Shown: positions 1-29,439 of the stretch, in pieces
Position numbering within the stretch: position 1 is the stretch's first letter
Layout: each line of letters starts with the position of its first letter
NCBI GenBank assembly: GCA_003008705.1
Contig: PDUO01000006.1
Location: 753,295-817,294, forward strand
DNA from: Pezicula radicicola
Lineage: Eukaryota; Ascomycota; Leotiomycetes; Helotiales; Dermateaceae
Length of the DNA: 64,000 nucleotides
Direction of reading: 5' to 3'
Program-made: the position numbers and the translations under genes
The notes under the pieces: model-generated
The model's input: the letters and a program-made list of their open reading frames with translations, nothing else
Told to the model about the DNA's origin: nothing
Databases searched by the model: none

Positions 1-1980
1 TTCTTCGATTCCTACCAGGGAAAAGGAAAACTCACAGGCCCAATGATATTTGAAACGCAGTAAGCGATGAAGACCAAAGCATTTACTGTGACCTTCTTTG
101 TATGCCCAGCGGTGTTTGCACTGTTAAGTCCAAGGGAGACGATATATGGGCCAAGGTAGAAATATGCAAAGTAAAGTGCAACTAGTCGGCCATTGAGGTT
201 GGAAAGGGGAAGACAATAGACAAACACAGTAGAAATCAGGCCTATGATAAGCCCGACAATGATAATGATGCCGCGGAAATGGTGCTTTGGAAGATGCTTG
301 GCAAGAAGAAAGACTGCGCCGTTACAGGCGTATGAAGACAAGGTCTGGATAATTCCTGGTGGAATGCTCAATAGCACCGCTTTCTGTGAGGAGTATCCCA
401 AGCCTTTGATAATAAGGGGTGTGAACTAAAGCGAGAAATTAGCTGTCAATTCTTACACATGTTTGATATGTACTGTAAAATAAATGTTAAAACTCACATT
501 GGTCAATCCACCATTAGGTATTGAGCTCCAAATATTGAAGAAAAACATGAGCCAAGTCTTAGGATCCCGCATTGCTTCCCAGAACTGATCCCACTTCCAC
601 ACTCTGTTCTCGATACCAGTCTGATTTTCTCGAACTCTGTCGACTGCGATAGCTTTCTCTCGCTCAGTTATAAACTTCGCTGTGACTGGAGAATCCGGGA
701 GGAAGATTCCAACGACAAGACCCCAGAGGATTGTCATAGATCCAGTGACCCAGAAAAATAGTCGCCATGGATTGTACCATTGGCCATCAGCAAACCCAAC
801 ACTGAAAACCTATCAGCACGAACCTAGTCAGACTGACAGCCTGGTATTGACTTACGCATAGCCAATTGATCCAGTAAAAAGTGTAGCAAGACCAGTATAG
901 AAAAGGCCCATTCTGATTGGTTGCTCTTCTCTACGATGACCATCAAATCAGCTTCTAAAAAGTGTGGTCAAGATGCAGAACTTCTAGGCAATGACCTACC
1001 TGGTATACCACATGCTAACAACAAGGAAATTACCGGGCACAATCGGTGCTTCTAGTACCCCAAGAAGGATACGCAGGGCCATCAGAGCCGGGAAGTTATT
1101 TACAAAACCTGTTCCAATGAGAATAATGCCGAATATGAACCTGTATTATCAGAGTCAGTAAATACGGGGTGGATATAAGTGTGTAAAACTTGATTCACGA
1201 GCTTTGGTATATGTATTAATCCCTAGAGATAGGTCTCAAAGCTCGTAAGTCAACCTAGATAGGAAATATGGCTTAGAGAATGTCTTTACTCAGCTGATGC
1301 CATCGTCTTGGCAATACGGAATCTCTGTAAAATCCTGCCAGATGGAATTGAAGCAAACATATATCCGACTGCTCAGGATCTTTAGTATTAGCCTTGCTTT
1401 CTCTAAGAAGTTAGAGGAGGAAGGGATGAAGCAGGCTCACGAACAATAAAAGGCGCTTCCAACCCATGCGTATCGATCACCTATAACGAGAAAAAGCACA
1501 GTGTCAGGTCAGCCACTCTAAAATAAAGTGAGAAGTTTAGGAAGCATGTTTAGAGCATAGAGACAGCTCTCAAGTCCTAGATATGCCTCGACGGGGGAAA
1601 AATATTGCGAGAAACTTACCCGTGAGGTTGCAATCTGTTTTCATGCCGTAGCTGTAGAAGTTAGGCCAAGCACTTTTTAGGCTTCATGTAATGAGAACTT
1701 ACACAGCACCGGTAGATGTTGTTATCTTGTCCAGAGCACTAAGTGATACATTGAACCAAAGGATTGGCACTAATCGTAAGTCCAGTTTCCACCTTAGTCT
1801 CTTCTCTTCCTTTCGTGTATAGGCACTGTCGCCATCCAATAGATCAGCATATGCAGCTGCAACATCTAGCTTGCTGTCTACTTCTTGGATCTTAAGAATA
1901 GAGCCATTTTGTACGTCCGGGCTGGTCGAGATCCCGCTGGCCACAGCTTTCGCCTGGTCTTTCTGGTCGAGATCAGCCAT
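1..1980 (-). CDS. Dal5-like MFS permease (ACS family), 3' end cut by window edge
   Basis: Eight coding exons fit one frame on the minus strand: 1703-1980, 1620-1651, 1445-1480, 1290-1368, 1000-1140, 856-930, 498-801 and 1-425, the last running off the window. The ATG at 1978-1980 starts MADLDQKDQ. A hydrophilic N-terminus leads into membrane segments with features of the anion:cation symporter (allantoate/vitamin permease, Dal5/Tna1) family: an IPSGRILQRF loop, RILLGVLEAP, a YTREEQPIRMG loop, FLPDSPV and a late NIWSSIPNGGLTN segment. Such proteins import small organic anions such as allantoate, nicotinate or pantothenate across the plasma membrane; the substrate cannot be read here. Several donors and acceptors were chosen because only they keep the frame and the family motifs. 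The intron at 1141-1289 belongs to a repeated intron family. The family is clear, the substrate unknown. Confidence 0.85.
1141..1289 (-). mobile_element. Introner-like element, family A copy 1 (intron of the Dal5-like gene)
   Basis: This 149-nt phase-2 intron resembles the 153-nt intron at 19933-20085 from donor to acceptor. Shared blocks on the minus strand include TTCCTATCTAGG, AAAGCTCGTGAATC (AAAGCTTGTGAATC in the other copy), ATCCACCC and an ACT(A/G)ACTCTGA branch-site region. A near-perfect stem is visible: GACTTACGAGCTTTG pairs with CAAAGCTCGTGAATC about 30 nt away. The host genes belong to different transporter families, so common descent of the intron position does not explain the match. 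Long internal hairpins and near-identical unlinked introns are hallmarks of introner-like elements described in Dothideomycetes. Confidence 0.65.
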
Positions 1981-3826
1981 CGTATCCCCAACCTGAAAAT
2001 TTGGAATTGTATAATAAGGCTTTCGAAGAGCTACTTATGCTCCCACAATTGATAAATCAGACGTTCTTAATCGTTGGCAAATGGATTAAGCATTCTATCT
2101 TGAGGAGCTTTGCCCACGATTATCGAACGTGGTCTCCAAATCAGAATAATCTGAACAATCTCACTGGTTCTTCCCCTCATTGATTCGCTCAAATCCGATC
2201 GCTCTATCAGCTCTCTGTCTTTGACCCTTCGACCAGGTGCCGAAAGATGTCCTATCAATCGGAATTGTTGCCCGCAACCCACTTTACCCTTGAATACTGA
2301 TAGCAGGCCAGGTTCCTCGGCTATTTCCGCATACTTATCGCCTACTTCAGGCAGTTGAGACTGCTATCTGCTGGCATAGAGCTCTGGAATACTTATAGTT
2401 ATAGCGCCAGCCATCTCATCAACTTGTCTTTCTGACTTCCACTTTATTGTTTGTGCAATTCAATTTCATGAACATACGTAGACGGCCAAGTCTGCTTTTA
2501 AAATTATAGGGTAGCATAGTGATCGACACTCGTTCGTGGCCTCCAGTGCAGACGATCACGCTTTCATCGATCATAATAATAGCCCAAGAAGCAAGTTTGC
2601 TGAATGGGAATGGTCATATACCTCTATTCGCCCTGTTTGTTCTCGCTTAGCAATTACCCAAGCAGCTTATCGAGCTCTCTTTGCTATTTAGCAGAATACA
2701 ATACAACAGAGGTGCTACCACCAAATTGACCTTCTATTGCAGACTTCTTCGAAAGCTTTAGTCAACCGCAAAGTGCGGCCACGTAGTCTCTTGCGCTCAG
2801 TTCCGTGAGGATAGTTTGAGGTCCCCAGGTTAGACGAGTTACTTAATAAGTGAGTTGCTCAATAGGTGATTACTTAAGTAAAACAACTCCTACGTGGCTA
2901 TTCCTTTAGCTTCTGATATGCGGTCAGATAGCAGTGATTTAATTTTACGGAAGAAATTACAGCATAAGTGTAGAAGACTTCAAGGTGTACGATGGGTGTT
3001 TGAAGAAGTGAGAATTCTGTGAACTGTCCCCTGCCATTTGTTAAAAAGGAGGGAACGCCTGTGCTGTGTTAAAATGTTGAAGCGAGACAAAACCTCGAGT
3101 TCGATGAGCTGTTAGTTAATAACTCTTGCTTGCTTGTCTTAAGAAATAGTATGCTTGGTTGATGAGGGTAGTTAAGCAACTGTAACGGATCTATGGAACA
3201 TGTTCTTCAATGATTACACGCCGGTCATTTAGAAGTAGTGTTAGAAATGGTGCTTGCAAATAGGCTCTAGGCACCGGAATATTCGGAAAGTCTATTTAGT
3301 CTTATATGTGGTGTGGCAACCCCACATCTGAATAGCTTCATCAATTACATGAGTACCGACAATTCAACCCATTATTTCTGACAAGTAGAAAGTACGTAAT
3401 TTAGAACCTAATACCTCTCTCTACTTTCTCTATAGACGAGAATTTCAAGGAAGTATAGGTTTCTGTCCCTTCGCTCCACAGTAGAATTTCGTTTCTATAG
3501 GTACGATATTTTTAATCGGAAGATACTGCTCTGCATACACATCGGGTTGCAAACTGTTTCCTTTCTGCTTTGTCTCTAGAACTATCTATCTGGTTAGAAG
3601 GAAGCTTACATTGTCAAATAACTTAGCCTATATTATAGTAGTGCATTAAACTTTGCCTACTTCCAATCACCATCTAGCATTACGGCACAGCTAGCACGGC
3701 CTCCCCCTCCAAGAAGCTAGCTACTAAATAAATACCAACCCCGCAACTCCATCCCCACCATCAAGTTTCCTTCCCATCCCCAAAAAACCACAAAAAACCC
3801 CCAAATAATAAAACAATCAAACAAAT
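1981..3826. other. Intergenic, divergent promoter region
   Basis: No coding potential seen. This holds the upstream regions of the minus-strand permease and the plus-strand small membrane protein. Around 2841-2882 there are short A/T-rich motifs of the type AAGTGAGTTGCTCAA that recur near 36.5 kb, 58.0 kb and 58.5 kb, perhaps a decayed MITE fragment. The last 120 bases before 3827 are C-rich with CCAACCCC and CCCCACCATC runs, like a fungal core promoter. Confidence 0.5.
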
Positions 3827-4300
3827 ATGCCAATTATACTCGGAGACACCTCGCCGGCACCGAGATGGAATAAGGTCCTACTAATACTACTATGGCTATC
3901 ACAGTTCACAATGACAGCCTTGTCCGAATTCCAGCTTTTCATAGCCATAAGCTTCTTAGGCTATGCAGAGTCATTTGGGGTTTATTTCTTGTAATAATCT
4001 TCCTTTCCTGGGCAGTTTAATTTGTATACTAACCAAAGGATCACTGTTTGTACTAGTTTGCTCACCACGATATCAATTATAAACGTCCTACTCCTCGCCG
4101 TGATATGCTACGAAGCATATATATACGCAGTCGATCGTCTAACCGCGTCAACATACTACAGATTTCAAGTCGTTAAGAGCGGTTATATCGCGTTCCTCCT
4201 ATTAAGCTCTTTATTCTCGAGTTCAGGAATTATTTTCCCTATATTTACGAATATCTTGGGGCTTTTTGACGTGTTGTGGAGATTGAGCTTGTTTGTGTGA
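3827..4300 (+). CDS. Small multi-pass membrane protein, two exons, unknown function
   Basis: Exon 1 is 3827-3990 and exon 2 is 4057-4300. The 66-nt intron has a GTAATAAT donor, a perfect TACTAAC branch site and a TACTAG acceptor, and joins both frames in phase 2. The product is 135 aa, starting MPIILGDTSPAPRWNK. It has four hydrophobic stretches (about residues 17-33, 37-54, 56-77 and 93-125) with short polar loops and almost no tail. This resembles small tetraspan proteins of the MARVEL/SUR7 type in layout only; no family motif was recognised. A C-rich promoter-like stretch precedes the ATG. The splice signals, matching phases and continuous hydrophobic pattern argue for a real gene. Function is unknown. 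Confidence 0.55.
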
Positions 4301-4691
4301 GTATACACATAGTGTTAGGTAGTTGGAGAATATCGCTGATTATGCGTCACTGGTGTAGAGCTCCCTTTTGGTCGGCGTTGTGGTACGCTTATGTTGTGAG
4401 GAAAGATTCCCAGGTCGGGCTGGGTAGCACTTCTAGCATGGCATTGTGAGAAGTGAGTGCTTGAATTTGAGCAAGGAGACTTGTAGACTGAGATTGATCG
4501 AAATTAAGGTTGAGAAAAATTGTTGGATAGAGCCGTCATTTACCTTTTCTTTCCTGGTAGAGCTATCGGACCAAGATTGCACTCATATTGTGGGAAAGAC
4601 GCCGACGCAAATTTTTTAAAAGAAAAGGATGTTCGGGAAATGGAATGGAAAGGTATGTCTAGCGCTCATCATTCATTAGCCACTACCGTTT
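4301..4691. other. Intergenic, convergent 3' regions
   Basis: This lies between the ends of the small membrane protein gene and the truncated SAT4-family gene. No gene, repeat or RNA was recognised. A short open frame at 4520-4702 has no family features. Confidence 0.4.
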
Positions 4692-5498
4692 TTAAGAATT
4701 GATCGTGCCTGAGCCCAATCCGTCGCTTAAGCTCCCTAATTTCCTGTCTCGTTCCATTTTGATGTCTCTAGAATCGCCATCGTGCCATTTCTGACTCCAT
4801 CCCTGTGTAACAAATATTGCACCATCAGCTACAACCAAGTTCTGCTTACTCTCTCCATCCCGACTGCCCACTGCTGACTCCATCTCACTCAATAGCACAC
4901 TCTCGGTCATTGCACGCGACTTGGTCCCAGAGGAATACACATTCGATGAAGAATCTGGCTTGGAGTTATTGTAATTTGCATATCGTGAACGATGGACTTC
5001 TACTCGGCCGCGGACAAAAATTGCAAAAGCGGGCAGACAACCAACAAGGATAGCGACCATGCCTTCAATAGCAGCCCAGAGAATCAACCAAGATGTGCTA
5101 ACTTGTCCAGCACTAGTGCTGGAGTGGAGGGAGACGACGCGCACAATGACAAATGCCATGGTTATTATGCCGACCGTGAAGACGAGGCCGAGAGAAAACT
5201 TTTCCATAGTGGATATTTGAAGGTTCCATAGGAGCCGAAGAGGGATGAGCATGACTGTAAGAATTAGAACGTGCTTGGTAGCAAGGAAAGAGAAGCATAC
5301 TTAGCAGGTCTGTTATGAGATCCACAGCAAGAGCATACCACAGGCTTGTTGCTTTTGCTATAGCATCGTGGGGTGTTTCGCAAGCTCCTACAGCCAGTCA
5401 GTTGTCTTTCAATTGAAATACATTATAATCCCATTGTGTGGCATACCGGCTGTGAACCAAGAAGACATCAAATAATGAAACCTCATGTGAAGGTACAT
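4692..5498 (-). pseudogene. N-terminally truncated SAT4/rhodopsin-domain membrane protein
   Basis: Three exons join in frame: 5447-5498, 5301-5387 and 4692-5254. They give a 233-aa open product with an ATG at 5496-5498. The part from GACETPHDAI onward matches the second half of fungal SAT4 (rhodopsin-domain) integral membrane proteins: DLITDLLIMLIP and LLWNLQIS, two more membrane segments (about residues 66-90 and 96-117), then a polar Ser-rich tail of about 115 residues. The two complete family members here (12650-13935 and 32537-34004) are about 390 aa and have four more helices before this point; none is recognisable in the kilobase upstream. It is either a 5'-truncated relic with a fortuitous start or a gene with unrecognised upstream exons. 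The frame is still open, so decay would be recent. SAT4 proteins include a G-protein-coupled-receptor-like subset, but most have no known role. Confidence 0.6.
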
Positions 5499-6892
5499 GG
5501 GTACTCTGTACAAGAATGGCAGTTCAGGGGATAACCCCTGCCATTGAGAATATGAAATCTCTACTTCGTACATTCTATGGAGTATACATGGTATAGACTT
5601 TGTGTCTTGAAGAGCTGTGATAATTCTTTTTCAAACAAGTACCTCAGAGTCACTCTGATTGTAATATCGGCCTCTCAAGTCACTGAGCAATTGATGATCT
5701 GAGAACGTGAGAGATCGTCCAGCACTATGCTGGCGACGAGTATTCCAGGTCCCAGGGCTACGGAGGTGGTCCAAGATTGCGCTATCGTATGCATGTGAAC
5801 ATCAATTGTTAACACTGAACAGCGCACAGAATCTCCCAGGGCTTTAGCTCGTGGTGAAGCGCCGACCATGTATGTGGAAGACAAGACCTCCATAGAAACT
5901 TGATAAAGTTGCGCAAACCGGGTCGATTCCATGACTCCCTTGCTCAATGGTCCACTCCTCAATTTCGCCATCATCTTAGTCCTGGAAAAAAAGTCTTTGG
6001 AGCGTGGTCGTAAAGAGGCCAGCCATCTTCTATTGGAAACAAACAAATCATTTCAAGTTCATGTTCCTTAAATATCGGGCCGTTCCACAACACATCTGCA
6101 TCCAATGGTAGACACAACTTCGTGTTAGAGTACCAATGACAGTTGAAATGGGGAGAGGACCCCGAGACCAGACGAGCTTCGGAAATGATAAGCCACCAAG
6201 TCTTCTGTGCCTCTTTCCTGCCGTGTTGAATCCTGGAATTGGACTTCAGTTTACGATCCGATTGCTGGAAATAGAAGGTGGTACTACGCCATACTACACC
6301 ATAGCCGGCTAGCCGTTGAGCTCCAATGCAAGGGCATTATTTCCGTAGAGTATACACCACACCATCGTAGAAAGCAATTCTTGGCTGCAGTATATCAGGA
6401 TCAACCCAACCTCAAGTAAGAACTAGAGGAGGTTCACAGCTGATGTCGATGAAGCCACCATCTGGAAGGGTTAAGTTTTGATGCTGAGGTTGTGGTTGTG
6501 GATGGGATAAAGCAAAGCAAGAGGAGAGAAAGAGGATGAAAATCCCCCACAATCAGAGCTCTTGGCATCGCTCGCTAAAAAATATAGGTACGAATACTGC
6601 TAGCGCATGGACATGCTTCCAGAACGGCTCCTCCTCCTCTTACTGTAGATCCGATCTCCAAATATCTACGTAGGGACTCGACTTCCCCTCGCTTTTAGAT
6701 CCATGTAACATCAAAAAAGAGATTGTAGGCTCCTAGGAGCTACTTCGACATGTATCACTAAAGTAGGTAAGCTACCTGTAAGTTTTGATTTCTCTTTCTC
6801 CCTCTTCTCTCTGTTCCTGCCTGTGACACCATCCTCCCCCACAGGCTGCATTACTGCCACCCTCCTTCTCTGCAGAGTACGCATTTATCACC
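5499..6892. other. Intergenic, no supported gene
   Basis: This holds the upstream region of the truncated SAT4 gene and the promoter of the secreted FAD oxidoreductase. A minus-strand open frame at 5675-6046 (123 aa) has no membrane segments, no family motif and no splice support, so it is not called. The 300 bases before 6893 contain C/T-rich tracts typical of a fungal promoter. Confidence 0.4.
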
Positions 6893-8575
6893 ATGCGCTT
6901 CTCAAGCCTCGGCTTGCTTATTCTTGGCTTCGCAGGCCTCGAAGTAGTCGCGCAGAATGCCACACTCACCTTGGATGAAATTGACGCGCAAATATCAGCC
7001 TTCCTCCAAAGCTCACAGAACTCCACCTTGAGTAGCAGATCAGGAGCTTTATCTGGTTGTTCTCTCGCTGTAAAGCTCCTACTTCCCGTTTTGAGAGATA
7101 CTCTCTGACAAAATTCTAGTGCAGGTTCTTGCACTTCTTCCTTCCGGGTCAGGTTTCGTACCCTGAAAGCACGACCTACGAGTACGAAGAGTCTCGTTAT
7201 TGGGCAGTCCAACAAGCATCCAGTTCCCCAATCTGTCGACTCTCGCCTTCAAATGCTTTCTCGGTGTCTACTGGCGTTCTGACTGCGCGGGTAGTATCGT
7301 GCGAATTTGCGGTCAAGAGTGGTGGGCACGCAGCTTTTTACGGTGCGTCCAACATCAATGGGGGATTGACAATTGATCTGGTAAATTTGAACGAAGTTGT
7401 CGTTTCTGCGGATGAGACTCAGACCTCTGTTGGAGCTGGGAACAGGTGGTATGATGTCTACACAAAATTAGACCCATTGGGCCTTTCAGTAATTGGGGGG
7501 CGAGTTGCAGACATTGGAGTTGGTGGATTGACGCTTGGGGGAGGCATATCATTCTTCTCTGGGCGGTACGGCTGGGCTTGTGACAATGTGAATACATATG
7601 AAGTTCGTTCGCCCCTGGGTCTATTGAAGTCCAACTCTAACCATAACACAGGTCGTTTTCGCTGATGGCACTATTCACGAGGTCAGCTATGCCACCTACC
7701 CAGATCTCTACTATGCCCTTCGAGGAGGTGGTAATAACTTTGGTATCGTCACGCGCTTCGACCTCAATACGTTCTCCCAAGGCGACATGTGGGCTGGATC
7801 CGAGACTTTTATATATGATAACTCAACAGCAACAGCCCTCAATAACGCCTTCTACAATATGAATATCAACGCTCCTTCAGATCCTTATGCTGCAGTGATC
7901 CTCGCATACGCCTATGTGCAAGCCGAAGATATCTATGTCATAGCCTCAGATCTACAATATGGCAAACCTGTCATCAATCCACCAATCCTCCAAAATTTCA
8001 CCGCAGTCGCTGGCGTGATTGCAAGTACACTCCGCATAACCTCGCTCTCTAACCTTACAGTCGAATTCAACAACTCAAACCCAGGGGGGTATCGTCAGAC
8101 CTACTGGGCGCTCATGGTCAAGAACTCTCCAACTCTGATGTCCGAGATAACAGCAATCTTTATGAATGAAACCAATGCCATCAAAGATGCAGCCAACATC
8201 ACCTCATCCTGTGTCTACCAGCCCATAACCACAGACCAAATGTCACACTTTTCAAAGAACGGCGGCAACGCTCTCGGGCTATCTCCCGCCGACGGACCAT
8301 TAAACATCATAAACATCGATATCTCCTGGTCCTCTGAAGCAGACGACACTAGAGTACTAGCTGCAGCGAGGAATATCGTGAACCAAGCAAATGTAACAGC
8401 GTATGCACAAGGCCTAGGAAATATGTTCCTCTACCAGAACTATGCCGCACTAGAGCAACCCGTTTTCCCAAGTTATGGTGCTGCAAATCTAGAGAAACTG
8501 AGAGCTGTGAGTGCAAAGTATGACCCAAGTAAGGTGTGGCAGACCTTGCAGCCGGGTTACTTCAAGGTTGGCTGA
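6893..8575 (+). CDS. Secreted FAD-linked oxidoreductase, berberine-bridge-enzyme-like
   Basis: Exons 6893-7069, 7120-7602 and 7652-8575 join in phase 0 to give 527 aa. A signal peptide (MRFSSLGLLILGFAGLEVVAQ, cleaved near residue 20) is followed by the PCMH-type FAD-binding fold. The GCSLAC and LPGQVSYP segments precede FAVKSGGHA, whose His is the usual covalent FAD attachment site, then GAGNRWYDVY and GVGGLTLGGGISFFSGRYG. After the second intron come VVFADGT and LRGGGNNFGIVTRF. A BBE-type C-terminus (YQNYAAL near the end, then KVWQTLQPGYFK) closes the protein. Many Asn-X-Ser/Thr sites fit secretion. Relatives oxidise alcohols, sugars or alkaloid-like substrates with oxygen; some serve biosynthetic clusters. 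No cluster genes are adjacent, so a stand-alone extracellular oxidase is the simplest view. The substrate is unknown. Confidence 0.9.
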
Positions 8576-9013
8576 TAGGGGAAGAAGTGAGCCAAGGAGA
8601 TTGGGGGACAAAGACGGATAGAACGCTGTCTGCAGACTGTTTACTACTGCAAAACATATATACATATATACATAATACGTAATACGTAAAAGTTTGAATA
8701 CTGATGAAGTATATTTTTGAAAACGTAAAAGACTTATGAACGCCAAGTAGAATATAGTCTAATTTAAACCAGGGTATTTACAGTGTATATATACATAAGC
8801 CAACAACCGAGCGCCGTATCGTATCAAACAATAACAATCGGAAATATACATACAAGTGCAGGACATACTCTGGTATATAAATATATATGCCGATATATGT
8901 AATACCAATGCATCCATAGGTATACAGTAAAGCAAACGCACGAAACTTTTCGTACTCTAGTCTTATATCCCCCAGGCTATATGCGTGTGCTATATGTAAC
9001 AGCTATGTACTGC
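8576..9013. other. Convergent intergenic spacer
   Basis: Shared 3' region of the FAD oxidoreductase (+) and GT69 gene (-). It is rich in TATATA/ATACATA runs (8650-8900), suitable for polyadenylation of both transcripts. No gene was seen. Confidence 0.5.
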
Positions 9014-10492
9014 TCATTCTAGAGGAGGAACCTCGTAGCGCAGATTATCCCAATTGCCCTCTCCTTCTTCCAGCTTGCCCTCCTTGAGCACAAGCAATTG
9101 TCGAACACCACAATAACCACCTCTTGCGGCGGTTCTCTCAAAGTCTGTATAGTGTCCCCTGCTCTCCCAATTTCCCAACCCTCCTTCCTCACCAAGCGTC
9201 GCTCTACCCGATATCTTCTTGACATCTGTCTTAGAAAGCGAGGCAGGTTGGGAAACCCATAGTCGGTCCTTGATAATCTGACCTTCTTTCTCTGTTCTGC
9301 GGGCATTGTAACGTGGCATGTGGGCAAGAGGGTTGATGATTGCTTGGAGGAGGGCAAATAGTCGTTCAAAGCGTTTAGCTAATGCAATGCCCTTGAATGT
9401 TCCGGCGTCATATGCGACGCGCACAAAAGGGTTCATATAAATGCCTGGATCGCTGTCATCGAAGCTAGATTCCGTGGTGAGGTTAGAGAGAGACATGATG
9501 TCTGCATGTATCAGACAACATTCAGAGGAATCCCAAAAGGGTTCGGGTTCGGATCGGAAACGAAGGGGGAGGATCGGCAGTGTTGTGTCTTGTGGTACAG
9601 CAAGACCACCTTGCATGAAGTATTTCGCATCGAAGGCGACCATTCCACCCCAGCAGCTCTTGACTCGGACTGCGTCTTTACCAGCCAGGACATCATTCCT
9701 GCTTGCAGCATCCCCTTCATTCGCAAACCAAGGGAATATGGGTACTCCAATGCTGTATCCTTCCAAGTCCCTCGTCGCAAAGGTGTCGTAGTATTTCCAG
9801 GACGTCACAAAATCCGCTCCGCAGACGGCGTTGTATGTTGACTTTCCGTCCTTCACATTTGTTCCCCAGAGCAGGCGCGTCGCATCCTTAGCCTCGAAAA
9901 AGACATCGTTGATGAAGAGCACCTTGTCGAAGCGCGCCGGCGAGTTCTGTAGGGGCTGTAACGCCTTGTTCCGAACTTCTGCGAGATACGCAATCCGTTT
10001 TATCCTCTCTTCTCCAGTAGGTAGAAGAGTATGCGGGATGCTCTCCAACACAATAGGATCCTGTTCCTCAACGACCAGACTGCTATTACATGACAGCTTG
10101 GAGTCCAGTTCCTTCAACGCAGAACCAGGACCGCCATAGATGCTGACGAAGACTCTCTCCTTTCCAATCAAATCTACCAACTCTAATAAAGACTTACCCC
10201 AAGCGCCGGTTATCAGGTCCCCGTCGATGATGTTCGCTGCGATAAAAACAGTTTCGTCGGCGGGGATGGAAAAGGGCGGAGGGTTGGTGTAGGAGGCGTT
10301 GAATGTGGTTTGCCAGAAAAGGAAGACGATGACGCCGATAAAGATATAGAGGGGTCGGACGACTCTCCTACTCTTGCGCAATAGAGCGAAGATAGAGGGA
10401 AAACGACGAATCCGCGGCCGGTCCTTTTCAGCGTCTAGGGAGGACCGCGGAAGCAGGTCATACTGGGTCATAGCTGCAGTTCTGCGCAGCAT
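9014..10492 (-). CDS. GT69 family alpha-1,3-mannosyltransferase (CMT1/CAP59-like)
   Basis: A single uninterrupted exon encodes 492 aa. It has type II Golgi topology: a basic cytosolic N-terminus, one membrane anchor at about residues 46-62 (RPLYIFIGVIVFLFW), then a lumenal catalytic part. The sequence resembles the cryptococcal mannosyltransferase 1 family (Pfam CAP59_mtransfer): VFIAANIIDGDLI, VFVSIYGGPGS, RIAYLAEVRNKAL, FDKVLFINDVFF (acidic motif in the DxD position), CGADFVTSWKYYDTFATRD, WFANEGD and a KSCWGGMVAFDA block. Known members transfer mannose in alpha-1,3 linkage, using GDP-mannose, onto glycolipids or polysaccharides. A second Met at residue 8 could be the real start. The promoter is the 2.1-kb gap to the next gene. 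Family confident, acceptor unknown. Confidence 0.88.
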   Translation of the reverse strand: MLRRTAAMTQYDLLPRSSLDAEKDRPRIRRFPSIFALLRKSRRVVRPLYIFIGVIVFLFWQTTFNASYTNPPPFSIPADETVFIAANIIDGDLITGAWGKSLLELVDLIGKERVFVSIYGGPGSALKELDSKLSCNSSLVVEEQDPIVLESIPHTLLPTGEERIKRIAYLAEVRNKALQPLQNSPARFDKVLFINDVFFEAKDATRLLWGTNVKDGKSTYNAVCGADFVTSWKYYDTFATRDLEGYSIGVPIFPWFANEGDAASRNDVLAGKDAVRVKSCWGGMVAFDAKYFMQGGLAVPQDTTLPILPLRFRSEPEPFWDSSECCLIHADIMSLSNLTTESSFDDSDPGIYMNPFVRVAYDAGTFKGIALAKRFERLFALLQAIINPLAHMPRYNARRTEKEGQIIKDRLWVSQPASLSKTDVKKISGRATLGEEGGLGNWESRGHYTDFERTAARGGYCGVRQLLVLKEGKLEEGEGNWDNLRYEVPPLE

Positions 10493-12649
10493 ACGAAATT
10501 GGTTTTTTGCTCAGGCTGGGGATGGAATAATCATATTGCTTCGCAGATGTGGCTTCCCCAACGGAAGAGCATCTACGGATATTGGAGGTACGTAAAGGGA
10601 TTGATAGTATTGACGTGAACAGTGGTGATGGGCTCGGTATTCGTTGTCCCTTCTCGGGTTCGACAACTACTCGACAGGTTGCGATGGCCCCTATCAAAAT
10701 TCATGCGAGAGTGTACGTATCCATCACTCCCGTCTGCACTCGTGTGATGCGATGCTGCTGGTTGGCTCGGCGCTCGGGGTACTTCCAGGATCCTCCAAGG
10801 CTGCGATCACGTGGTTCCAATGTGGTCCTAGCCTTACGATCTTCCACATCTTGGGACTTGGGATCTTCCAGCAGCGAAGATCAAGCTGAATTCAATCTTT
10901 CGCCGGAGTGATGCCTCTTTCAACCTCATCCCTCTCGCTACAGTACCACCACCACCCATCTACTACATACATGTCCTAGTTCTATCATATCTGCCTCTGT
11001 ATCTGCCGTTCCCAACAACTTCGCTCAGCCAATCTCGCCTAGGCAGCTTACTGTATTATTATTTGTCTTCTTTGCTTTGCTTTGCATTGCATGATGAGTT
11101 TACCTGTATCTCCACTTTCTTCGACGACAACAGTGACAATTTTCCAACTTTTCCAACTTTCTTTACTGATGCTCAATACTCTCGGGGGCGGGATCGCTTT
11201 GGATATGCCGCGCCAGTCGGAGTCCTTTATTGTTTTGATTGCCTCTCGTTCTCTCACGCTACCACGCCGTAATAAAGTAAGGTACCGACCGGTAGGTACA
11301 AACTCGCGTGCTCAAACACCGTTGAAGTGAAGTTCTCAGCGGTAACCCGATGCGGTCCTTCCGCACCTTCGTCGCCATGCTTACGAGTTGCCAACTCACA
11401 GTTCCCAACACTTGTTGCATGCGTTGGTGCTTTTCGAGATCTTTGTCAGAGATAATATTCCTGTATTCCAGGGCCATGCGTTGCGGGCATGACTTTTCGA
11501 GCCGACATCCGACTCTCCATCCATCCCCTAATGTACGGAACCCAACGGCCAACCACGACCCTGGAATGAAAACCATTCAATCGCGTGTTCTCACGCAGGT
11601 ACAGGAGCTATGGTAGGCTTCTAGTAGCTAATCATGTTCCCCTTTGTACCCTTCCCTTCTTCCAGAAGTCTTCTAAACCGTAGGCGTATCAACATTAAGT
11701 TTTGATAGGTCGGCTGGGGGATGAATGAGTACTATTGTTCATGCCCTGGAAGATCTCCCAACATTGACTTTGACAAACTTATAGCGCCCGAACCCCTTTC
11801 CCCAGCCTACAGTAAATGGATACAGTACAGTAGTGGATTTTCAAAATCTGCCGTAGAGGTTCCCACACCGCTTTGATGACCATCTGGATCGGATCGTATC
11901 GTGGACTGAAAGAAAGATTTACATCGAGAGCGGGTACCTCCTATAGTGCAGTTATCTTACCTGAGCCGTTAATGGCCTCTTTCTCGGTCGCTGCTGCACC
12001 GGAATCGCACGAGAGTTCGAGTTTAACAAGAGACGAACACTTACACCAAATGGAAGCAAGTTGTGGCTGGCTGACCTTTTTCTATTGAAACTTCTGCTCT
12101 TTTAAAAAAAAGAGCATTGCATGATATGCCACCCCACCTGGATGGCCTGGATATCAACTTGTACCTTGGAAAGTCCAATGAAGCCTTGAGGATCTTCCGA
12201 ACCCTTCCTAATGTCCGACGCTATTTGTACTTTTTATCTTTTCCCCAATGGGAATGTTCTCACGCATGAAGTCCGGATTGCATGCTGGAGCGTGCGGCGA
12301 CAGTCTTGGACCTGTAAGAAACGCTCCGGCAGGACGACAACGTACGGAGGTACTCAGATCATCTCAAGAGCCCCACACTAAGCATTATCCCTGGAGTCAG
12401 GGGCTTACCTACTGTAGAAACGCGTTCTTGTTGCGTATAAAACTGATACTTGCAGTGATCCGGAGCGTCGCTTAGTTGACTTCCTAGCCCTATCAAATTA
12501 TCAATCGGCATATGTCTCCACCTACTCCCCAAAAAGCTTGTGGAGAGGGAGAACATGACTCCTAATACTTCGAACTATATTTGAGCTTCGTCCTCCTCTG
12601 TTTCTTTTACCTGATTTTTGGACTGGATCCTCAATTAGCTTCCTATGAT
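10493..12649. other. Intergenic, divergent upstream regions
   Basis: Upstream region of the GT69 gene (-) and the SAT4 gene (+). Several open frames of 60-120 aa overlap on both strands, but none has family motifs, hydrophobic structure or consistent splice signals. Pyrimidine-rich stretches at 10910-11160 could be promoter or leader sequence. No RNA gene was seen. Confidence 0.4.
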
Positions 12650-13935
12650 ATGGCTGAAAACCTCGCTGCAGGCTTATACGCTAGCGCCGCCATACTCCTC
12701 TTCTTAGCAATACTGACGACTGCTCTTCGCTGTTATGTTCGAATAGTAATTCTTAAGACGTTCGGAGTTGATGACTACCTAATGCTCCTCGCCCTGGCTT
12801 TTTATACTGTTTATATCTCGTGGGTCTTTTATGGAACGCATTTCAATGGAGGGCGCCATACAGTAGACATCCCATTGGATGCATACTCACCTTCGTTATT
12901 GGCCTTTTATATGGGCGAAGTATTTTAGTAAGTCTTCCATCCAAAGTAGCTGTATGATATACTAATCGCATGCAGTGTCATCACAGCATTTATCATCAAG
13001 CTTTCTATCGGCGCTTTCCTACTCCGTCTTTTTAAGTCTAAGGCGCAACGAGTGGTAGTCTACGTAACCTTGGGAGTAGTGACTATTTACAGTATCGCTT
13101 ATACCTTCATGACAATCTTTCAATGCTCGCCTGTAGACCATTATTGGCACCCTACCTCACCAGGAACTTGCTTCTCGACAAACTTCGTCCTTGCTGTCAC
13201 TTACACCCACACGGTCATACTATCTTTCTCCGATTTCTTATTTGCAGCAATGCCGATCTTCCTCGTTTGGAACTTACAGATGAATCTGTACATGAAGATT
13301 TCAGTTGCTGGATTGATGTCATTAGGAGCCATGTCTGTCCTCCCATTTCAAAATCAGTAGGCTTTATTCGTCGCTAACACATGTTGGTATACAGTGCGGG
13401 AGTAACAAGTATTATTCGAGTCGTCTACATCAAAGCTATATCTGCTCAAAATGACCTGTTCTTCGAGTCTTCCAAGCTTATCATCTGGACCAATCTAGAA
13501 CCTGGAATTGGGATAATCATTGGCAGTGCTGCGGCCCTGCGTCCACTGTTCAAGACTCTCCTTGGGAAAACGACCTTGTTCAGCTCCTCGAGATCAAGAA
13601 ATTACGGTGCATATGGTACAGGTTCACGACGTCATGTTGGAACAGGACCCTGGGCGTCAAGTCACGACGCGCATTTCCAGCTTGAGAGTTTGAAGGGCGA
13701 AGAGGACATAGGGTACAGCACCAAGGTCAATGGTGGTCCGAGCAGAACATTGAGCAAAAAAGGGATTATGGGAACAGGACTGGGACAAGGCGATAATGAT
13801 AGTTCGGAGCAGTTAAGGCCCGTAGTCCAGGAGGGAAATATTTTGAAACAGACGACTGTAGAGCGACATGTGGAAATATATGGTCACGATGTGAGCAGGG
13901 ATATTCCACCACGTCCGTCGCCAGGGAATTTCTAA
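12650..13935 (+). CDS. SAT4/rhodopsin-domain seven-helix membrane protein
   Basis: Exons 12650-12927, 12976-13332 and 13395-13935 give 391 aa; both introns are phase 2. Seven membrane segments are visible from LYASAAILLFLAILTTAL to the last helix before ALRPLFKTLL. Family signatures are present: LRCYVRIVILKTFGVDDYLML after helix 1, FYMGEVFYVITAFIIKLSIGAFLLRLF, a CSPVDHYW..PGTC loop after helix 4, MPIFLVWNLQMNLYMKISV, and an RVVYIKAIS..DLFFESSKLIIWTNLEPGIGI stretch. A Ser/Gly-rich cytosolic tail of about 110 residues follows, as usual. These proteins sit in the plasma or vacuolar membrane. A minority (Pth11-related, often with an N-terminal CFEM domain) act as surface receptors; this one has no CFEM or signal peptide. 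The start was chosen as the only ATG close before helix 1 in an open frame. Confidence 0.87.
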
Positions 13936-16274
13936 GGATAATACTCCTGTTAAAATCTGGGGAGATGGGGTCAGCACCAGGGAATGGTGCTACAGCCACG
14001 GAGAGGGTATCATCAGGATTAAAGGACTTGGGGGGCATTAAAAGGTGGAACGGAGTTCAGGAGAACCACTCTATGCGTACTATGGACAGCAGAGTGGGAA
14101 ATTCAGGGTGAATTCTACATGCATGCAATTGCGGTCATTGGCTTTCGGGGCCATTTTCATTGTATATCCAGGACCGGGATTACTCCGTATTACTATACGA
14201 CTACAGCCATATTAATACAGACATTTTATTTGTATCCCAGGCTATAGTTCTTCAAGAACCAGGGCTAGGATTTTTCTATTTCTTCGTATGTATTGAAAAG
14301 AAATCTCGTGGGAGCTCAAGGAGGTCAAGGAGCTGCTTCATAGACGTGTAAACCATCGATTCTTGCCAGTAACAGAGGAATTTGATTGCTCCTTGTATTT
14401 CTATAACACCCTCCCTGGTCAAAACCTCCTCACTACACGGCAGTTATAGTTATATCCCAGAAGAAGGCATACCAGCAACCAGCAACCATCACCACAACCT
14501 AGCCTAGCTCAGCCTCCAAAACCCGTCGCCCTCCTTCGCAACAGTATACCCAAAAGGTTCGCGACAACAATCGCAAGATTGGTTAAGCCGCTAGGATTCT
14601 CTAACTCAGGTGGGAAAGAAAACAGTAATGATCAGCCACTAGAAGAATGCCAGAAACCCAGAAAACCAGAAACCCAATTGTAATCATTGTAACCATTCAA
14701 GGTCTGGTGACAACCTTCATTACTGTATGTAACTTTTTGTATTTTGGAAAAACTCACAGACCTCGAAAGTTTCATCTCTTCTCATGACTTCCATATGGAG
14801 TAATAAACTTTTTTTTCTTGTGTCTGTATTCCTGTGCCCTGGGTCATGGGATACATTGTACTTCTTAGACTTACTGTAGAATGAAGGATTAAAGTTTTCT
14901 ATGCCGTTTATCTGATGCATCGGTACTATATTTTGTAAAGTTTCTTTCCTGAAGGCTTTACTCTGCACAGGGGAAGTGTTGCGGTGGTCGTACAGGTGGG
15001 ATAATAATCCTCCGTAGGATGACGAGATGGAAGAAGATGATGAGAAGGGGCTGACTAATTGAAGAAACGAAACAATGACATTGAAACGAAACGCGGTGCA
15101 AGCACACAGACTTATTCTTTACTGATAGTATGCCGGAGAGATCTCCTTTGGAATTCTGGTAACGGGAAAAGCACTGGTTGTTTTCATGAGCCGCGCTGTA
15201 CGGAGTAATAATATGGTACTTTGTGAGTTACGTAACGCAGGTACTGTACAGCCCACCGGCACCGGCTCATCCGCATTGCAGGAGTAGGTACTGTATTGAC
15301 TGATACGTCATACCACTGTTTTTGTATTGGTGGTCCTACCGAAAAAGACAAAGTCAACATATATCTTCAACCAACTTTCACAGCCCATGAAGAATCAACA
15401 AGAGAAGTGTACGAATAGTCTCTCGGACGATGTGAGGAACAGAAGAAGGCCAACTAAATAAGAAGTCGATGGGAGCATCATGTGATATAAGAAGAGCCAA
15501 GGGTCCAGACCAAAAGATCTGCACTCCGCCTCAAGATCTCACTCACAGAGGCACAGCATCTCCATCCATCTCAGACTCCAGTGCTCCAGTGCTCCACAGC
15601 ACAGCACACAAACAAGTCCTCTCGGCCAGGCTCGACCCTTCGAGACCTTTGATCTGCAGAAATTCAGACGTGCAACAAAGCCTCCGAAAAGCTCTCGGGC
15701 CTTGGACATCTGTGGAGTTTTGGGTCAGCAGAAAGGAACCAGACGGAGAGGAAATTGTGGCTGAAGGTCTGGAGTCGTGTGCATGGTTATTTTTGTGTCT
15801 TGAATGTTTCAGACGTCAGGTGCATTTTCCCTTCTTGATCCGGGTGTGGAAAGGAGGGAGACCGACCTACCAAAACAGGATGGGAGGGACTGAAACATCA
15901 CAAGAGATATTGAGAGATGTGGAAAAGAGAGTTTGGAATGTGGAATGTTCGATTTGCAACAAAAGATGGATTTTTTTTTGGCTTTTCTTTTGGACATCTT
16001 TCTGTTCTTCTTCGTGTTTACTCCGTACAGTACAGTTATTACTGTTTCTCTTTTGAGGTTCAGGGACCCCTGTGGGAACGTGGGGTATTTTCCGGTCGTT
16101 GGACAGCAACATGTTCTAGGCCTCTTCGTAACTGGCCACTGGCCTTAAGGCTGAGGGTTGCGTACATCTTTCGGACGATCCACATGCCCCCCTCCCCTCC
16201 CCCTTGAAGTTTTTGGAAGGATTGACGAAAATGCTGATGTGCAACAAAAAGCCCCCTTTGGTTTGGTTCTTCCT

Positions 16275-16335
16275 ACTTCCTTGCTTCCTTGCTTCCTACT
16301 TTCCTTGACTCCTAAACTCCTAAACTCCTAAAGTC
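16275..16335. repeat. Short tandem repeats CTTCCTTG and CTCCTAAA
   Basis: Consecutive copies of CTTCCTTG grade into CTCCTAAA repeats. The strand is pyrimidine-rich and non-coding. Confidence 0.7.
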
Positions 16336-19115
16336 CCTCACATGACATGTTTGTTGTCTTCGTTGGAATAATCGGATCCCGCATCCCGTGGATACGTACG
16401 GAGTATGTGTGGCTTGACACCAAGATTCCAGGGGTTCGGCTACCTCCCCCTGATGTGGCAGTTTAGGGTCTAGATCCCTAAAGACCAACCTGACGGACAG
16501 CCTGACAGGAGGCTGAATCCTCCTTCAGGGTCTACAGATCAGAAAAGACCTTTTGATCGGCAATGCGATATGCAACAAGATCTTGCCGCTCAATAATTCC
16601 GCCTCCTTCCATTCGTTATGAGCATTTCCCTTGAACATCTCCCTTGAATTACTTATGGGTCGGCATTACCACTCTAGGTTAGCGACGGGGGTTGAAATCA
16701 GGATCTCTGGGGTATTTTTGTAATGATCTGGATCAGGGATTCCCAGTATCACAACCAAGGCACCCAACCCAGCCTACCAAAACTGACTTTCTACTATATA
16801 CGGAAGATTTTAGCTTCGTAGGTACGGATCGACTATAGAAGGTTTCGATCGACATTTGTAGACGTGCAACAAAGAGTGCGAAATTGATGGTGGGGGCCAG
16901 TCAAAAGATAGGGGAGAAGGGCAAAGTTCGATCCTTCAATCGGTGCTTCGTCTCCGCTGTATTTCTACTCGGCAACCCGCCTCATCGAGGCCAAGATGAG
17001 CCGGCCGATATGCGACAGAGGAAGGTTCTTCGCTCATCGTTCTTCGTTCTTCGCTCTTCGGGAGAGCATAAACTCATGCTGATGCCATGTGTATTCTACC
17101 TTACTGTACCCAGTAGAAGCCTTTCTAGACTGGAATAAACTTTCATAGAAGTCGACTGCGATATTCAACATGCACTTCTTCAGACGGAACGATTACGAGC
17201 TTCTGTGGTTGGTAAAATAGTGGGCTGACGCCACGTGGGCAAAGTGCCGCTTGTGTGCTTCGCGACTTGATTCGGCCTTTCCAGATCAGAAGTGCGATTT
17301 TGCGATTGAGAAGTACGGTATATCCGGAAGACGACTGGCTATATGAGTAATAGCCGCTTTGTAACTGACTTGGATTGGTTCGAGAGACTCATGGACTCTT
17401 GATTTTCCTAAGCGAGATAGAGGATGAGTTCACTGGTTTGTTTACCTACAGCGTACTATCGGCAATCCAAATGTATATACCTATCAGGAAAAGCAGCACA
17501 ATACTCTTGTGTACAACCGTTTTTGGTTTTGTGTTTGTCTTCGCTACCAAGAAAAGTATGTATGGCTATTAGACCAAGGAACTCTCTCTTGTATAAAACA
17601 TTAACACAGTACTGACAGAACTGTAGGCTTAACTAGCTCGCAAGTCTTTATTAATAGTCTTCTTAGCCTTTATAGGTTACGTATAATATCAAAACATGTC
17701 TAACAATAGTCTTGCTTCGTGGCTTTGTTACAGTCTGCTTTTCCAGTGCACGGCACAACTTTTTATTCCACATCTTGTCTTGTATTAACATTAAAGAAAC
17801 ACTAGAAAATCTTATGCAAGTTTCGCAAGTAGTAGCTAGGTACCAGAGATTCCAAGACTGAGCATACTAACTTTTAAAAAATGAGCACAACTAAACCCAC
17901 GACTTTCAACTGCTTAACTCAAAAACAAGAAGGCACTATGACTCGAGAAACTACCAGAGTAAGTTAACTTGAATTATACTCATTGGGCATGATTGTACTG
18001 TTAGCTACAGAGGCTGCCCCTCTACTTATTCCAACCCTGAAACTTCTTCCACAAAAATACATGTCAGAAATGTTTTTTCTTGATGCCCAACTAGATATCG
18101 TTTAATTTATGTCGTTAAGCTGATCGTCTTACTAGCGGTTATGCCAATGACAACAGGAGCAAACTAGTAGCACCGGACCCGGTCGGATTCCCTTGGGTTC
18201 TAAGTCACTACTCTCATGGTTCTGCTGACTGTGTACCTGCGCATTTGCTAATCCTGCAGATTGTATAGTAAATACTATCTTATGAATATACTTCTCCCTC
18301 TTCTTCAAAATATCTAAAGAGCTCTATTTAACAGTAAAGTTACTGATCTCAATGTTCTAAGGATTAGTAACTAAGTTCGTAATTCTCTTAAACTAGTCTA
18401 TTAAATAGCATTGACTTTTTGTTTGGTAAAGTACTCTAAGATTGCCTCTATAGCTATAATTTGAAGTTAGTTGGTAGGTGTAGGAAGAGAAATTAGGTTT
18501 ATTGTGGACATATAATTTTAGATCAAATGAAGGAGGAATTCTATATTAACGATTTTACATTATGCTACTCTTCTAAGTTCAACATATTCAATTATACTTA
18601 CCCCTTAGGGATCTCTAACAAAAACATTAACAACAGAAAATAATACCTTACAAGTTAATTCCTTACTACAAGATAGGAGATAGTTCTAAAATTGAAAATG
18701 CCTTGTAAACTATCTGTAAGATTATATTGTATAAGTAGTTAGTTGCTAAGGAACTGTTTTCTCTAGCAAGAGCTTCTTAAACGGACCGTGTTTTCTTTTT
18801 AATGAATTGTCCTATAAATTAATTGCACTGTTTTAAGTCTAACTGTACTGTACTGTTAAGTCACTCAAATAGAGTAAGTCACTATGCCCTTTTGTGATAC
18901 CCTCATAACGTAGTCACATAGCAGTAGTGACTGCATCTGTAGAACAATTCTTAGTTTTCTATAGAAAAGAACATACTTAAACAGGTTTCCACACATAGGT
19001 TATTTACAATAATGTTACACAATATTATAATTTCTATTACAACAAACACCACAAACATCAAGCCCGTAAGTCTCATTACTCTTAATATATTCAGAATGGG
19101 GTAACTAACTCTTTA

Positions 19116-19186
19116 AAAGGTTTAGCACAGTGGTAATGCGTATCACTTGTAATGATAAGATCGCTCGTTCGATTCGGGCAATGGGC
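19116..19186 (+). tRNA. tRNA-Thr(TGT)-like sequence, probably a pseudogene or tRNA-derived repeat
   Basis: The anticodon arm is perfect: TATCA, loop CTTGTAA (anticodon TGT), TGATA. The T arm is GCTCG-TTCGATT-CGGGC with one G-U pair. The D arm TAGCACAGTGGTAATGCG matches the A-box pattern (TRGCNNAGTGG), and the B box is CGTTCGATTCG. The acceptor stem fails: 5' AAAGGTT against 3' AATGGGC pairs at few positions. A T6 run follows at 19191, as for Pol III termination. The location in AT-rich repeat debris also argues for a decayed tRNA gene or a tRNA-derived SINE head. Confidence 0.45.
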
Positions 19187-19418
19187 AAAAGTTTTTTCTT
19201 TTTTCTCTTTCTTTTTTGTTCTGTAAGGAAGCGAGAGTCTTCATCTCAATTTCTGCAATGAATTTCACGCGAAAAATCTTTATACTGTAAACAAATAGTT
19301 CCAACAAATTTGTATTAGATTATATAATAAATGTTCTCACCATACTTGCATCTTCAACCAGTTACAGTCAATAAACAGAATTTGTACACGCTTCTTGTCA
19401 AGCAAAACGACTACCAAC

Positions 19419-21689
19419 CTAAGTAGTGGTAGTCTTGTTATCTCCAACGTGATCAAGCCTCTGTGCACCGTCATTCTCGCGATGTTCGTGAATAAGGTCA
19501 CCCTTTCCTTGCAATACAGTCTCGACATCTGCTGCGCGCTGTTCGGCATTGACAGCACCGAAGAGAATATCCATGTCCTCGAGAGTTCGGCCCTTGGTCT
19601 CTTTAATAAAGAACCAGACAAAGACACCGTTGGCGACACAGAATATACCAAACATGAGGAAGGTTCTCCATCCAATGTGGTTCACAGCGTTTGGTGTGAC
19701 TTCAGTGATGACGAAGTTGAAAAGCCATTGGGTTGCGGCAGCCAATCCTACACCGTAAGATCGTAGGCGGGTTGGGAAGATCTCAGAAACATACACCCAT
19801 GGGATTGGGCCCCAAGACGCAGAGTATCCAATGACATAGAGATAGATCATGACAACCATAGCAATGGAGGCAGGAGAGACGACATTGACATTCGTCGGAG
19901 GGTGAGTGTTTAGAACGGCGCCGAGAATGAACCTGCGTTCTCAGAGTTAGTAATACTTCATTTGGGTGGATTTAAGGCCACAAGACACGATTCACAAGCT
20001 TTGACACATGTTCTAATCTCTAGACATGTTTCAAGGCTCGTGAGTCCGCCTAGATAGGAAAATATAGTTCAAAGAGTGTCCTTACATCATGGTCATCATC
20101 CATGCTGCACCGAACAGAAGAGACTTGCGTCGACCGAGTTTGTCAATTCCAATGATCAAGAACAAACCGGTTGTGAAGACCTTGACGGTACCATAAACAC
20201 CAGTAGCGAACAAAGAGGAGTTGGTCTTAGAGACACCGACTGTCTGGAAAATCTGGGGTGCGCTATTTAGGACTTCGGTATTAGCAGTGTTTCTTTTAGA
20301 AGGCGTTAGGAGAAGCAAGGCAAGATTTATAAGTAGGGAGGCATGTCTCGGGAGTGTAAAAATCTCGAGAAATGTTATAGCACTCAAGACGAGCAACAAT
20401 AGGGCAAAAATGAACTGGGTTTACGAACTAGTAACCGATACTGTTGGTTCCGCTGAACTGCTGGCACAACATCAAGAAGAAGGCGACGAAGATTCTGTAT
20501 CGGTTTTCAGGCCGAATACACTCCTTCCAGGTGACGCCCTCGGTTGCAGCTAGCTCCTCCTCGATTGAGGCACGAATTTCGGCAATTTCTTTAATGATCT
20601 CGGGGTCATCTACATCATCGCATCGCATGTAGGCAAGCGATCTGGTAGCTTCTTCGTAGCGAGCTTGCTTCATAAGCCATCGTGGAGACTATTAAGGACA
20701 ACATCATTAGTCTAATGTCTTAATGCACCGGAAAAAAACAACATTAAACAGCATTCAGGCTAAATTTTCAAATGCAGTTACTAGGAAGGTATGCTTTCAA
20801 AATACTAACCTCCTTCAAGAAAAACAGGCCGATAAGGAGTGCTCCACCTGGAATGAGTTGAATAGCTACGGGGATTCGCCATTGTCTCGTCGATGTGGGA
20901 ATATGAAGTGCAACTCCGTAGTCCAGCCAGTAGGCAAACGTTGAACCAATGACCAAGAATTCTTGGAAAAGCCCGGTGATGCGACCTCGAATAGCTGGTG
21001 GACAGTTTTCAGCAACGAAGACTGGCGTGATACTGGCTATTCAAAACAGGTAAGTCAGCATGTTTCAATATAGGTTGCTTTCGGAGCAGAGGAGTAAAAC
21101 CCAGTGTTTTAGGGAGTAAATGGAGCGAGAAGACAAAAACGGAACACGTACACATTCCTCCAATACCAAGACCAGCAATAACTCGACCAGCATAGATCTG
21201 GCCAATAGAGTGGTGTGCGGCAGTCTGAATGGCTGCCCCGATAAGGAAGATTAAGGCGAATCCCATTAAAGAAAATCGTCGGCCATAACGGTCGTTCAAG
21301 AAGGCGGCAGCAATAGCCCCGAAGAAACAACCAGCAGTGAGTAAGGAGACGACATTCGATGAGACATGAGCATTCTGCTTGTTAGCGAACCCCGAGCTGT
21401 CGGTGGGGAGTCCAAAGTCCTTTTTGAAACTCTTAAGAGCAAGAACGCTTCCCATTACCTATACTCAGAGACTCGGAGTTAGTTTACTTGGTCTAGATAG
21501 ATCAGGATTAAATCAATCATGAATTAGGAGTAATGCGTACACCAGTGTCATAGCCTTGTAACTAAGTATTAGCATGATCAAAATATAATATAAGTCGGAA
21601 GAATACACACCAAAGAGCAATGAGCCCATATAGGCAACACTTGTCAGAATATAAACTCTGTAGTTTTTGAAAAAGCCGGTCTTCCCCAT
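19419..21689 (-). CDS. qutD: Quinate-permease-like sugar-porter family MFS transporter
   Basis: Seven exons (21611-21689, 21541-21554, 21152-21458, 20810-21036, 20429-20688, 20086-20262, 19419-19932) give 525 aa with twelve predicted helices. Sugar-porter landmarks are present: SLLFGYDTGVMGS in helix 1, [97 protein letters not shown] and [15 protein letters not shown]. Overall wording closely follows fungal quinate permeases (QutD/Qa-y), which import quinate for catabolism; symbol by resemblance only, and a related substrate is possible. Exon 2 is a 14-nt microexon supplying YDTG, and its intron acceptor reads CAAG. Two introns (19933-20085, 21459-21540) belong to repeated intron families. 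No other quinate-pathway gene is adjacent. CreA-like sites lie upstream. Confidence 0.9.
19933..20085 (-). mobile_element. Introner-like element, family A copy 2 (intron in the quinate-permease-like gene)
   Basis: This 153-nt phase-2 intron has donor GTAAGG and acceptor ACGCAG. On the minus strand it can form a strong hairpin: GACTCACGAGCCTTGAAACA with its partner TGTGTCAAAGCTTGTGAATC around a short loop. It aligns along its whole length with the intron at 1141-1289. Both are followed by exon sequence GTTCAT, and both lie in phase 2. Confidence 0.65.
21459..21540 (-). mobile_element. Introner-like element, family B short copy (quinate-permease-like gene)
   Basis: This 82-nt intron matches the 3' two thirds of the intron at 48346-48472 without gaps, about four bases in five by hand count over 78 positions. 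Shared blocks are TTAATCC, TATCTAGA and CAAGTAAACTAAC, followed by a CTGA-TATAG acceptor. It appears to be a family B unit lacking the 5' part. Confidence 0.6.
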
Positions 21690-28547: not shown

Positions 28548-29439
28548 AGATAACGAAACGAGAGAATTATGACGGCGTATTTAGGCATGGGCGGAATGGG
28601 ATTATTCAGGCGCAATCCTTCTTCGAGATACCCGGCATAATCATTGTGATGTCACACGGTGTTTTGGAGATCTTGTATGTATTTAGAGATAAGACTCAGA
28701 CACAAAGGTGGCTTTATTGGACCAATCTGGGAGTATGCGCGCAGGTTCACTATCGGAGGAGAGCCCTCTGCAGGAGTTACAATAGCTTTCGTACGCTGAA
28801 CATTAGAGAATGAATAAATGCACCAACTTTTACACTACATTATGAGTGTCACGTGCCTGTCGCTGGCTTCAATGGATCTTTTGGCTTCCTGTAGAAAAAT
28901 AGAGGAAATCGCATGGTGCCACTTGAGACAAGAGGTCGCTCTCAAAAGATATGGCATCAGAGCATCAGAGCATCAGAGCAACAGAGCATCAATGCCACTA
29001 CTGGCATATTACTACTCTAATACGGCGATCTTCTACCAAGATGCTCACTTAATTTTCTTCAGCCGCCAACGCAGAGCAGTTCAAGGACAATGATAATAGC
29101 ATGGTATGTTTACAGTCACAATCTAAGAAAAAAACCTGTAGGGATGAAGGTTGCTCTTAGCGAAAATTGCCTGTGATTCACTCTAGGCACCAGTAATGAT
29201 CAGGACGTTCTGGGATGAAAACAGGTCTTGATGATAAGGAGATCGGTGCCATGGATTGAAGAAAGAAAAGAAGAGGATTTCGCCTGCTGAAGATTTTCTT
29301 TTGAGGTTGTGAATTCGCGCTAAGCTTTAGCTTGATGACTAAGCGAGCCCAAAACTTTTGGGCGGAGCTCGTGGAGACATCGCGATTGTAAGGGGATTGA
29401 TTGTTGGCATTTCGAGGGAATCCTGACAACGACAAAGAT
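28548..29439. other. Intergenic with short tandem repeat
   Basis: 3' region of the RING-PHD gene and promoter of the mL46 gene. No gene was recognised. A minus-strand frame at 29178-29435 has no features. Confidence 0.4.
28954..28992. repeat. 8-bp tandem repeat GCATCAGA
   Basis: Five consecutive units with the fourth altered to GCAACAGA and the fifth to GCATCAAT. Confidence 0.8.

Follow-up and report, generated by a model that had tools for sequence, protein, structure and literature searches.

The window, that is, the whole 64,000-nucleotide stretch of Pezicula radicicola contig PDUO01000006.1 analyzed here, holds MFS transporter genes with introns of several repeated families (Table 1). 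Additionally, a tRNA match (Rfam) lies at 19121–19181, just downstream of gene b. A 144-bp repeat at 3240–3383, which starts with TGTTAGAAAT, ends with ATTTCTGACA and carries AGTAG on both flanks (by eye), resembles a solo long terminal repeat, and 40 other copies of it were scored out of 86 candidates. A 388-bp element at 36264–36651 has 27-nt inverted ends that are 89% complementary and many partial genome copies (39 scored of 134 candidates); it looks like a miniature inverted-repeat transposon. In an AT-rich region, positions 58988–59081 and 60339–60435 are 78.6% identical over 98 columns.

Table 1. Genes and repeated introns in the window, with related introns elsewhere in the assembly
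Feature	Position	Strand	Description
Family A introner-like copy	1141..1289	-	149 nt, phase 2; host is an MFS_1 transporter gene
Gene b	19419..21689	-	525-aa sugar/quinate permease-like transporter; six introns in the model
Family A introner-like copy	19933..20085	-	153 nt, phase 2; sixth intron of gene b
Family C introner-like copy	20263..20428	-	166 nt; gene b intron 5; from genome search
Family D intron	21037..21151	-	115 nt; gene b intron 3; from genome search
Family B introner-like copy, 82-nt form	21459..21540	-	gene b intron 2; from genome search
Family B match, partial	23635..23698	-	E=4.8e-8
Family B introner-like copy, 127-nt form	48346..48472	-	second MFS gene (ORF 47334-48251)
Clustered family B introns	gene b 21459-21540; L064 (C93) ~945-1025; L077 (C71) ~1234-1300		sugar porters

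The introns at 1141–1289 and 19933–20085 had been singled out in an earlier note on this DNA. Their coordinates, minus-strand orientation and shared phase were confirmed, with GT and AG at the element ends. As the note had proposed, the hosts belong to different MFS families: the piece around 1141–1289 matches PF07690, and the gene at 19419–21689 matches PF00083. The two introns align end to end over 151 columns (E=1.6e-17) with 72.8% identity; about 27% of the aligned sites differ, so that they are relatives rather than the near-identical pair first described. Of the two introns, the one at 1141 contains the proposed hairpin core, GAGCTTTG/CAAAGCTC, without any change, whereas the 19933 copy has GAGCCTTG/CAAAGCTT instead. 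The suggested leotiomycete host agrees with the homologues of the gene b product: among the best 120 of 3748, the closest come from two species of Helotiales (Leotiomycetes), Halenospora varia at 86% and Coleophoma crateriformis at 84%, followed by Lachnellula and Cudoniella. Collectively, the results support the note's interpretation of an introner-like family; the note named the kind of element correctly and overstated how alike the two introns are.

To place the pair in the genome, we searched the assembly that holds the window (61,044,626 bases, 152 contigs). The 19933 copy gave 17 matches, including itself and the other window copy, and every one of the 16 other loci is above chance (E<=1.1e-7). 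A family A consensus built from 14 aligned copies retrieved 30 loci. In 27 of these, located in different genes, the likeness runs up to both splice sites, with the element spanning GT to AG at its own ends. A lack of further copies, which the earlier note had named as the result that would count against it, is thus contradicted. The three loci outside this set are C76:1484280, C77:287851–288016 and C148. The C77 locus is a member of family C, and C76:1484280 (L043, ending at C76:1484335) is an in-frame 61-nt intron that corresponds to family A's 3' half alone. For L025, L029 and L034, which belong to the 27, the BLAST match starts only at consensus positions 27, 19 and 68, respectively; therefore, their 5' ends have changed. 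Because the copies are only 71–95% identical to the consensus, family A is not visibly active. Repeat-induced mutation is not supported as the main cause of this divergence, since C-to-T and G-to-A changes (229) barely exceed T-to-C and A-to-G changes (188).

The copies lie in coding exons in the sense orientation, and the reading frame clearly continues across the element in 25 of 27, by a test that took the best of three phases and is biased on its own. The remaining two, L025 and L034, have an eroded 5' end and an ambiguous donor position. With these two entered as phase 0, 13 copies are in phase 2, 10 in phase 0 and four in phase 1. We scanned 26 of the 27 spliced host products with Pfam, omitting L034, and 21 have a match at E<=0.001. 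A Pfam domain spans the splice junction in 18 of the 26, two of them by only 5–6 residues and one (L031) under Pfam's cut-off. The matches include ATG22-like, P450, GAF, rRNA dimethylase, DUF1989/deacetylase, catalase, NAD-glutamate dehydrogenase, GH18, alpha-amylase, SDR, Zn2-Cys6 and MFS; the hosts are mostly unrelated and not duplicates of one another.

Such likeness might also stem from gene duplication or from introns that host a conserved non-coding RNA, for example a snoRNA. Six of the 26 scanned hosts do belong to transporter families (ATG22, MFS_1, Sugar_tr), and in three related sugar porters, one of them gene b and the others on C93 and C71, the family B introns at the FGYDTG motif are at most about three codons apart (by eye). 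For family A, however, this explanation is contradicted by unrelated hosts (catalase, glutamate dehydrogenase, P450, rRNA dimethylase and others), and the copies occur in three different phases. Moreover, at gathering score Rfam finds nothing in the window but the tRNA, which lies outside the introns, and no covariation above shuffles was seen. We consider this origin scarcely credible. Ordinary repeats inserted within pre-existing introns are nearly as improbable. The window does hold repeats of similar size (3240–3383 and 36264–36651), but the element ends are the splice sites in 27 of 30 loci, and no older intron sequence lies outside them, which contradicts this view for family A. Family A is almost certainly a family of introner-like elements.

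Based on the 27 copies, the insertion sites of family A follow a rule. The downstream exon starts with GY in 23 of 27 copies, compared with 908 of 8046 positions (11.3%) in the flanking exons (p=2e-18), and AG ends the upstream exon in just three of 27. Splicing itself could be behind part of the G preference. No target duplication of 2–4 nt was found at the tested offsets, and none of the 27 complete elements is intergenic or antisense. At the gene b site, the seam is free of indels within 8 residues in all of the best 120 of 3748 homologues. Similarly, 58 of 59 paralogue matches from the same genome that span this site lack intron-sized extra DNA.

The family A consensus is ~157 nt long, with the donor GTAAGG, the branch site GCTAAC near the acceptor CAG and a central CTCTAGAG. 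It forms an imperfect palindrome over its whole length, which is decayed in individual copies: the alignment of the consensus with its own reverse complement scores 98, while 300 shuffles reach at most 52, and only 11 of 27 copies exceed all 100 of their own shuffles in self-complementarity. Near-terminal inverted repeats, GGACATTCTC and GAGAACGTCC, begin a few nucleotides inside the ends. Folding of the consensus gives −55.7 kcal/mol (z −5.0), and single copies have a mean z of −1.85, negative in 26 of 27; across the 27 copies, fold z and identity to the consensus show no significant correlation (rho −0.25, p 0.20). When the consensus hairpin is laid on 14 copies, 83.4% of the cells pair, compared with 29–45% when it is slid. 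RNAalifold, applied to these 14 copies, failed to return the long hairpin; its structure and the covariance model R1 were set aside because the structure was weak. In the 14 copies, covariation at the hairpin pairs is not above shuffles (320 of 500 do as well), which gives no support to maintenance of the hairpin by selection. The pairs look inherited and then independently lost rather than maintained. Collectively, the sequences indicate an ancestral full-length palindrome that decayed afterwards in the copies.

The near-terminal inverted repeats and the whole-length palindrome are also what might be expected of miniature DNA transposons with splice sites in their inverted ends, moved by a transposase encoded elsewhere in the genome, like the introners of algae. 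However, family A shows no target-site duplication at 2–4 nt and the tested offsets, the lengths to which the statistical test was limited. In addition, selection would purge exonic insertions in the antisense direction but spare intergenic ones, yet all 27 complete copies read as sense introns within genes. Transposase-driven movement is therefore unlikely, though clearly a stronger candidate than duplication or insertion into older introns. RNA-linked copying is favored over DNA transposition because insertion is restricted to the sense strand and to exons and leaves no duplication; together with element ends at splice sites, these features fit the reinsertion of excised intron RNA at transcribed genes.

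Gene b carries introns of four repeated families, A, B, C and D, and family A is one of at least four such families in this genome. With the query counted, the assembly searches gave 40 scored matches of 74 candidates for family B (all E<=7.2e-10), 38 of 38 for family C and eight of eight for family D, the other seven of which are partial; the element ends in these three families were checked on few copies only. Two further family C copies and 10 family B matches at E<=5e-8 were found within the retrieved sequence. A longer form of family B (127–130 nt) occurs at 48346–48472 and in L022, in frame at both. L022 (C1:1644218–1647374), an rRNA dimethylase-type gene, combines a family A copy with two family B matches. 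The clustered family B introns of the sugar porters, which are among those 10 matches, could have been gained in parallel at a hot spot or inherited from a common ancestor. Gene b intron 4 has no genome copies, and intron 1 (56 nt) is shorter than the search minimum. The 139-nt (1481–1619) and 76-nt (1369–1444, bounds set by eye) introns of the gene at 1–1980 also gave no genome copies. A search of 28000–47900 for other families was swamped by the 36264–36651 repeat and is uninformative on introns there.

Among 115 positions of these families (29 A, 40 B, 38 C and 8 D), a list that leaves out the family B matches known only from retrieved loci, 12 pairs fall within 4 kb, compared with 0.86 expected. 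Six of the close pairs involve gene b, which was the source of families B, C and D; the six outside it come from four loci, and all six are on one strand.

Sequence comparison of the families revealed that A and C have their 3' halves, the branch-site side, in common: the scores of three family C copies are attained by 0, 0 and 1 of 500 shuffles. In contrast, their 5' halves do not align (282, 419 and 299 of 500 shuffles). A relation between A and B was rejected as weak and inconsistent between the two family B copies compared (3 and 392 of 500 shuffles). In one of 28 comparisons, the copy-free intron 1481–1619 resembles the 5' half of family A (0 of 500 shuffles reach the score); this intron is perhaps a very old relative of family A, or the likeness is due to chance. 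Tentatively, these introners might be modular: new families would arise when a portable branch-site module acquires a different 5' half, and RNA copying would revisit the same genes. If so, this would explain both the presence of four families in one transporter gene and the family B introns at nearly the same codon in sugar porters. We regard the modular reading as possible rather than probable.

In the mechanism that we propose, a ~157-nt spliceosomal intron bearing its own splicing signals would be copied into coding exons. The copying would pass through the excised intron RNA, which may re-enter transcribed genes by reverse splicing or by RNA-templated repair. Reinsertion of excised intron RNA has been proposed for other ascomycete introners (PMC8469720, PMC9860276). 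Simple reverse splicing gives the palindrome no role; repair-linked models make use of it (PMC8469720). The family A copies are presumably spliced in the cell. Taken alone, an RNA-linked route of copying is somewhat better than an even bet. Our overall reading, to which we assign a probability of roughly 0.7, is that family A consists of introner-like elements with splicing signals of their own that were copied into coding exons of about 27–29 genes, in an RNA-linked rather than transposase-driven manner. Thus, new introns seem to have arisen in this fungus through the copying of old ones.

To relate family A to known systems, we compared it with published descriptions of introners. Introner-like elements of Dothideomycetes are described from Fulvia, Dothistroma and relatives (PMC4457414). 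As in family A, these are similar introns in unrelated genes, several families occur per genome, some genes carry two elements, and transporters are among the hosts (PMC4457414). A predicted hairpin is described for them as well (PMC4457414); family A shows one in its consensus and less clearly in single copies. An AG/GY site preference is attributed to Dothideomycete work of 2012 (PMC8469720). In contrast, family A occurs in another fungal class, GY follows the element while AG before the donor is rare (3/27), and, set against those published descriptions, the copies are older and include no near-identical set.

Family A is also similar to the symmetrical (stw)introns described in Hypoxylaceae and Xylariaceae (PMC8469720, PMC12403724). 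Like those introns, its consensus can pair with itself over its length around a central palindrome, which is CTCTAGAG in family A and WTTCTAGAAA in the (stw)introns. Both also number tens of copies, inserted seamlessly without target duplication and only on the coding strand; in both, symmetry fades with age, and shortened forms still act, or here at least read, as introns (PMC8469720, PMC12403724). However, the (stw)introns descend from nested (twin) introns and are bordered by exons without bias in these accounts (PMC8469720, PMC12403724), whereas the reading frames of family A agree with one canonical intron, and its downstream exons show a GY bias. The DNA-transposon introners of algae and protists likewise create new introns in exons through their copies, and many of those families have inverted ends (PMC9860276); they differ from family A, which lacks a target duplication of 2–4 nt and has no intergenic or antisense copy among 27. 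The same 2022 survey describes its ascomycete introner families as having neither inverted ends nor duplications (PMC9860276), unlike the family A consensus with its near-terminal inverted repeats. We found no report of introners in Leotiomycetes or Helotiales among the papers listed in literature searches. Family A is a known kind of element in an apparently new host lineage.

The origin of new introns is an old open question. Fungal introners have been described in Dothideomycetes and Xylariales (PMC4457414, PMC8469720, PMC12403724). This helotialean genome has at least four families of repeated introns, four of which meet in a single gene, and is a further case in which to test an RNA route and what the palindrome does. 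The insertion rule of family A is clear: the elements enter before GY, in the sense orientation and without duplication. Moreover, these results suggest that old introners make up many of the fungal introns that look ordinary.
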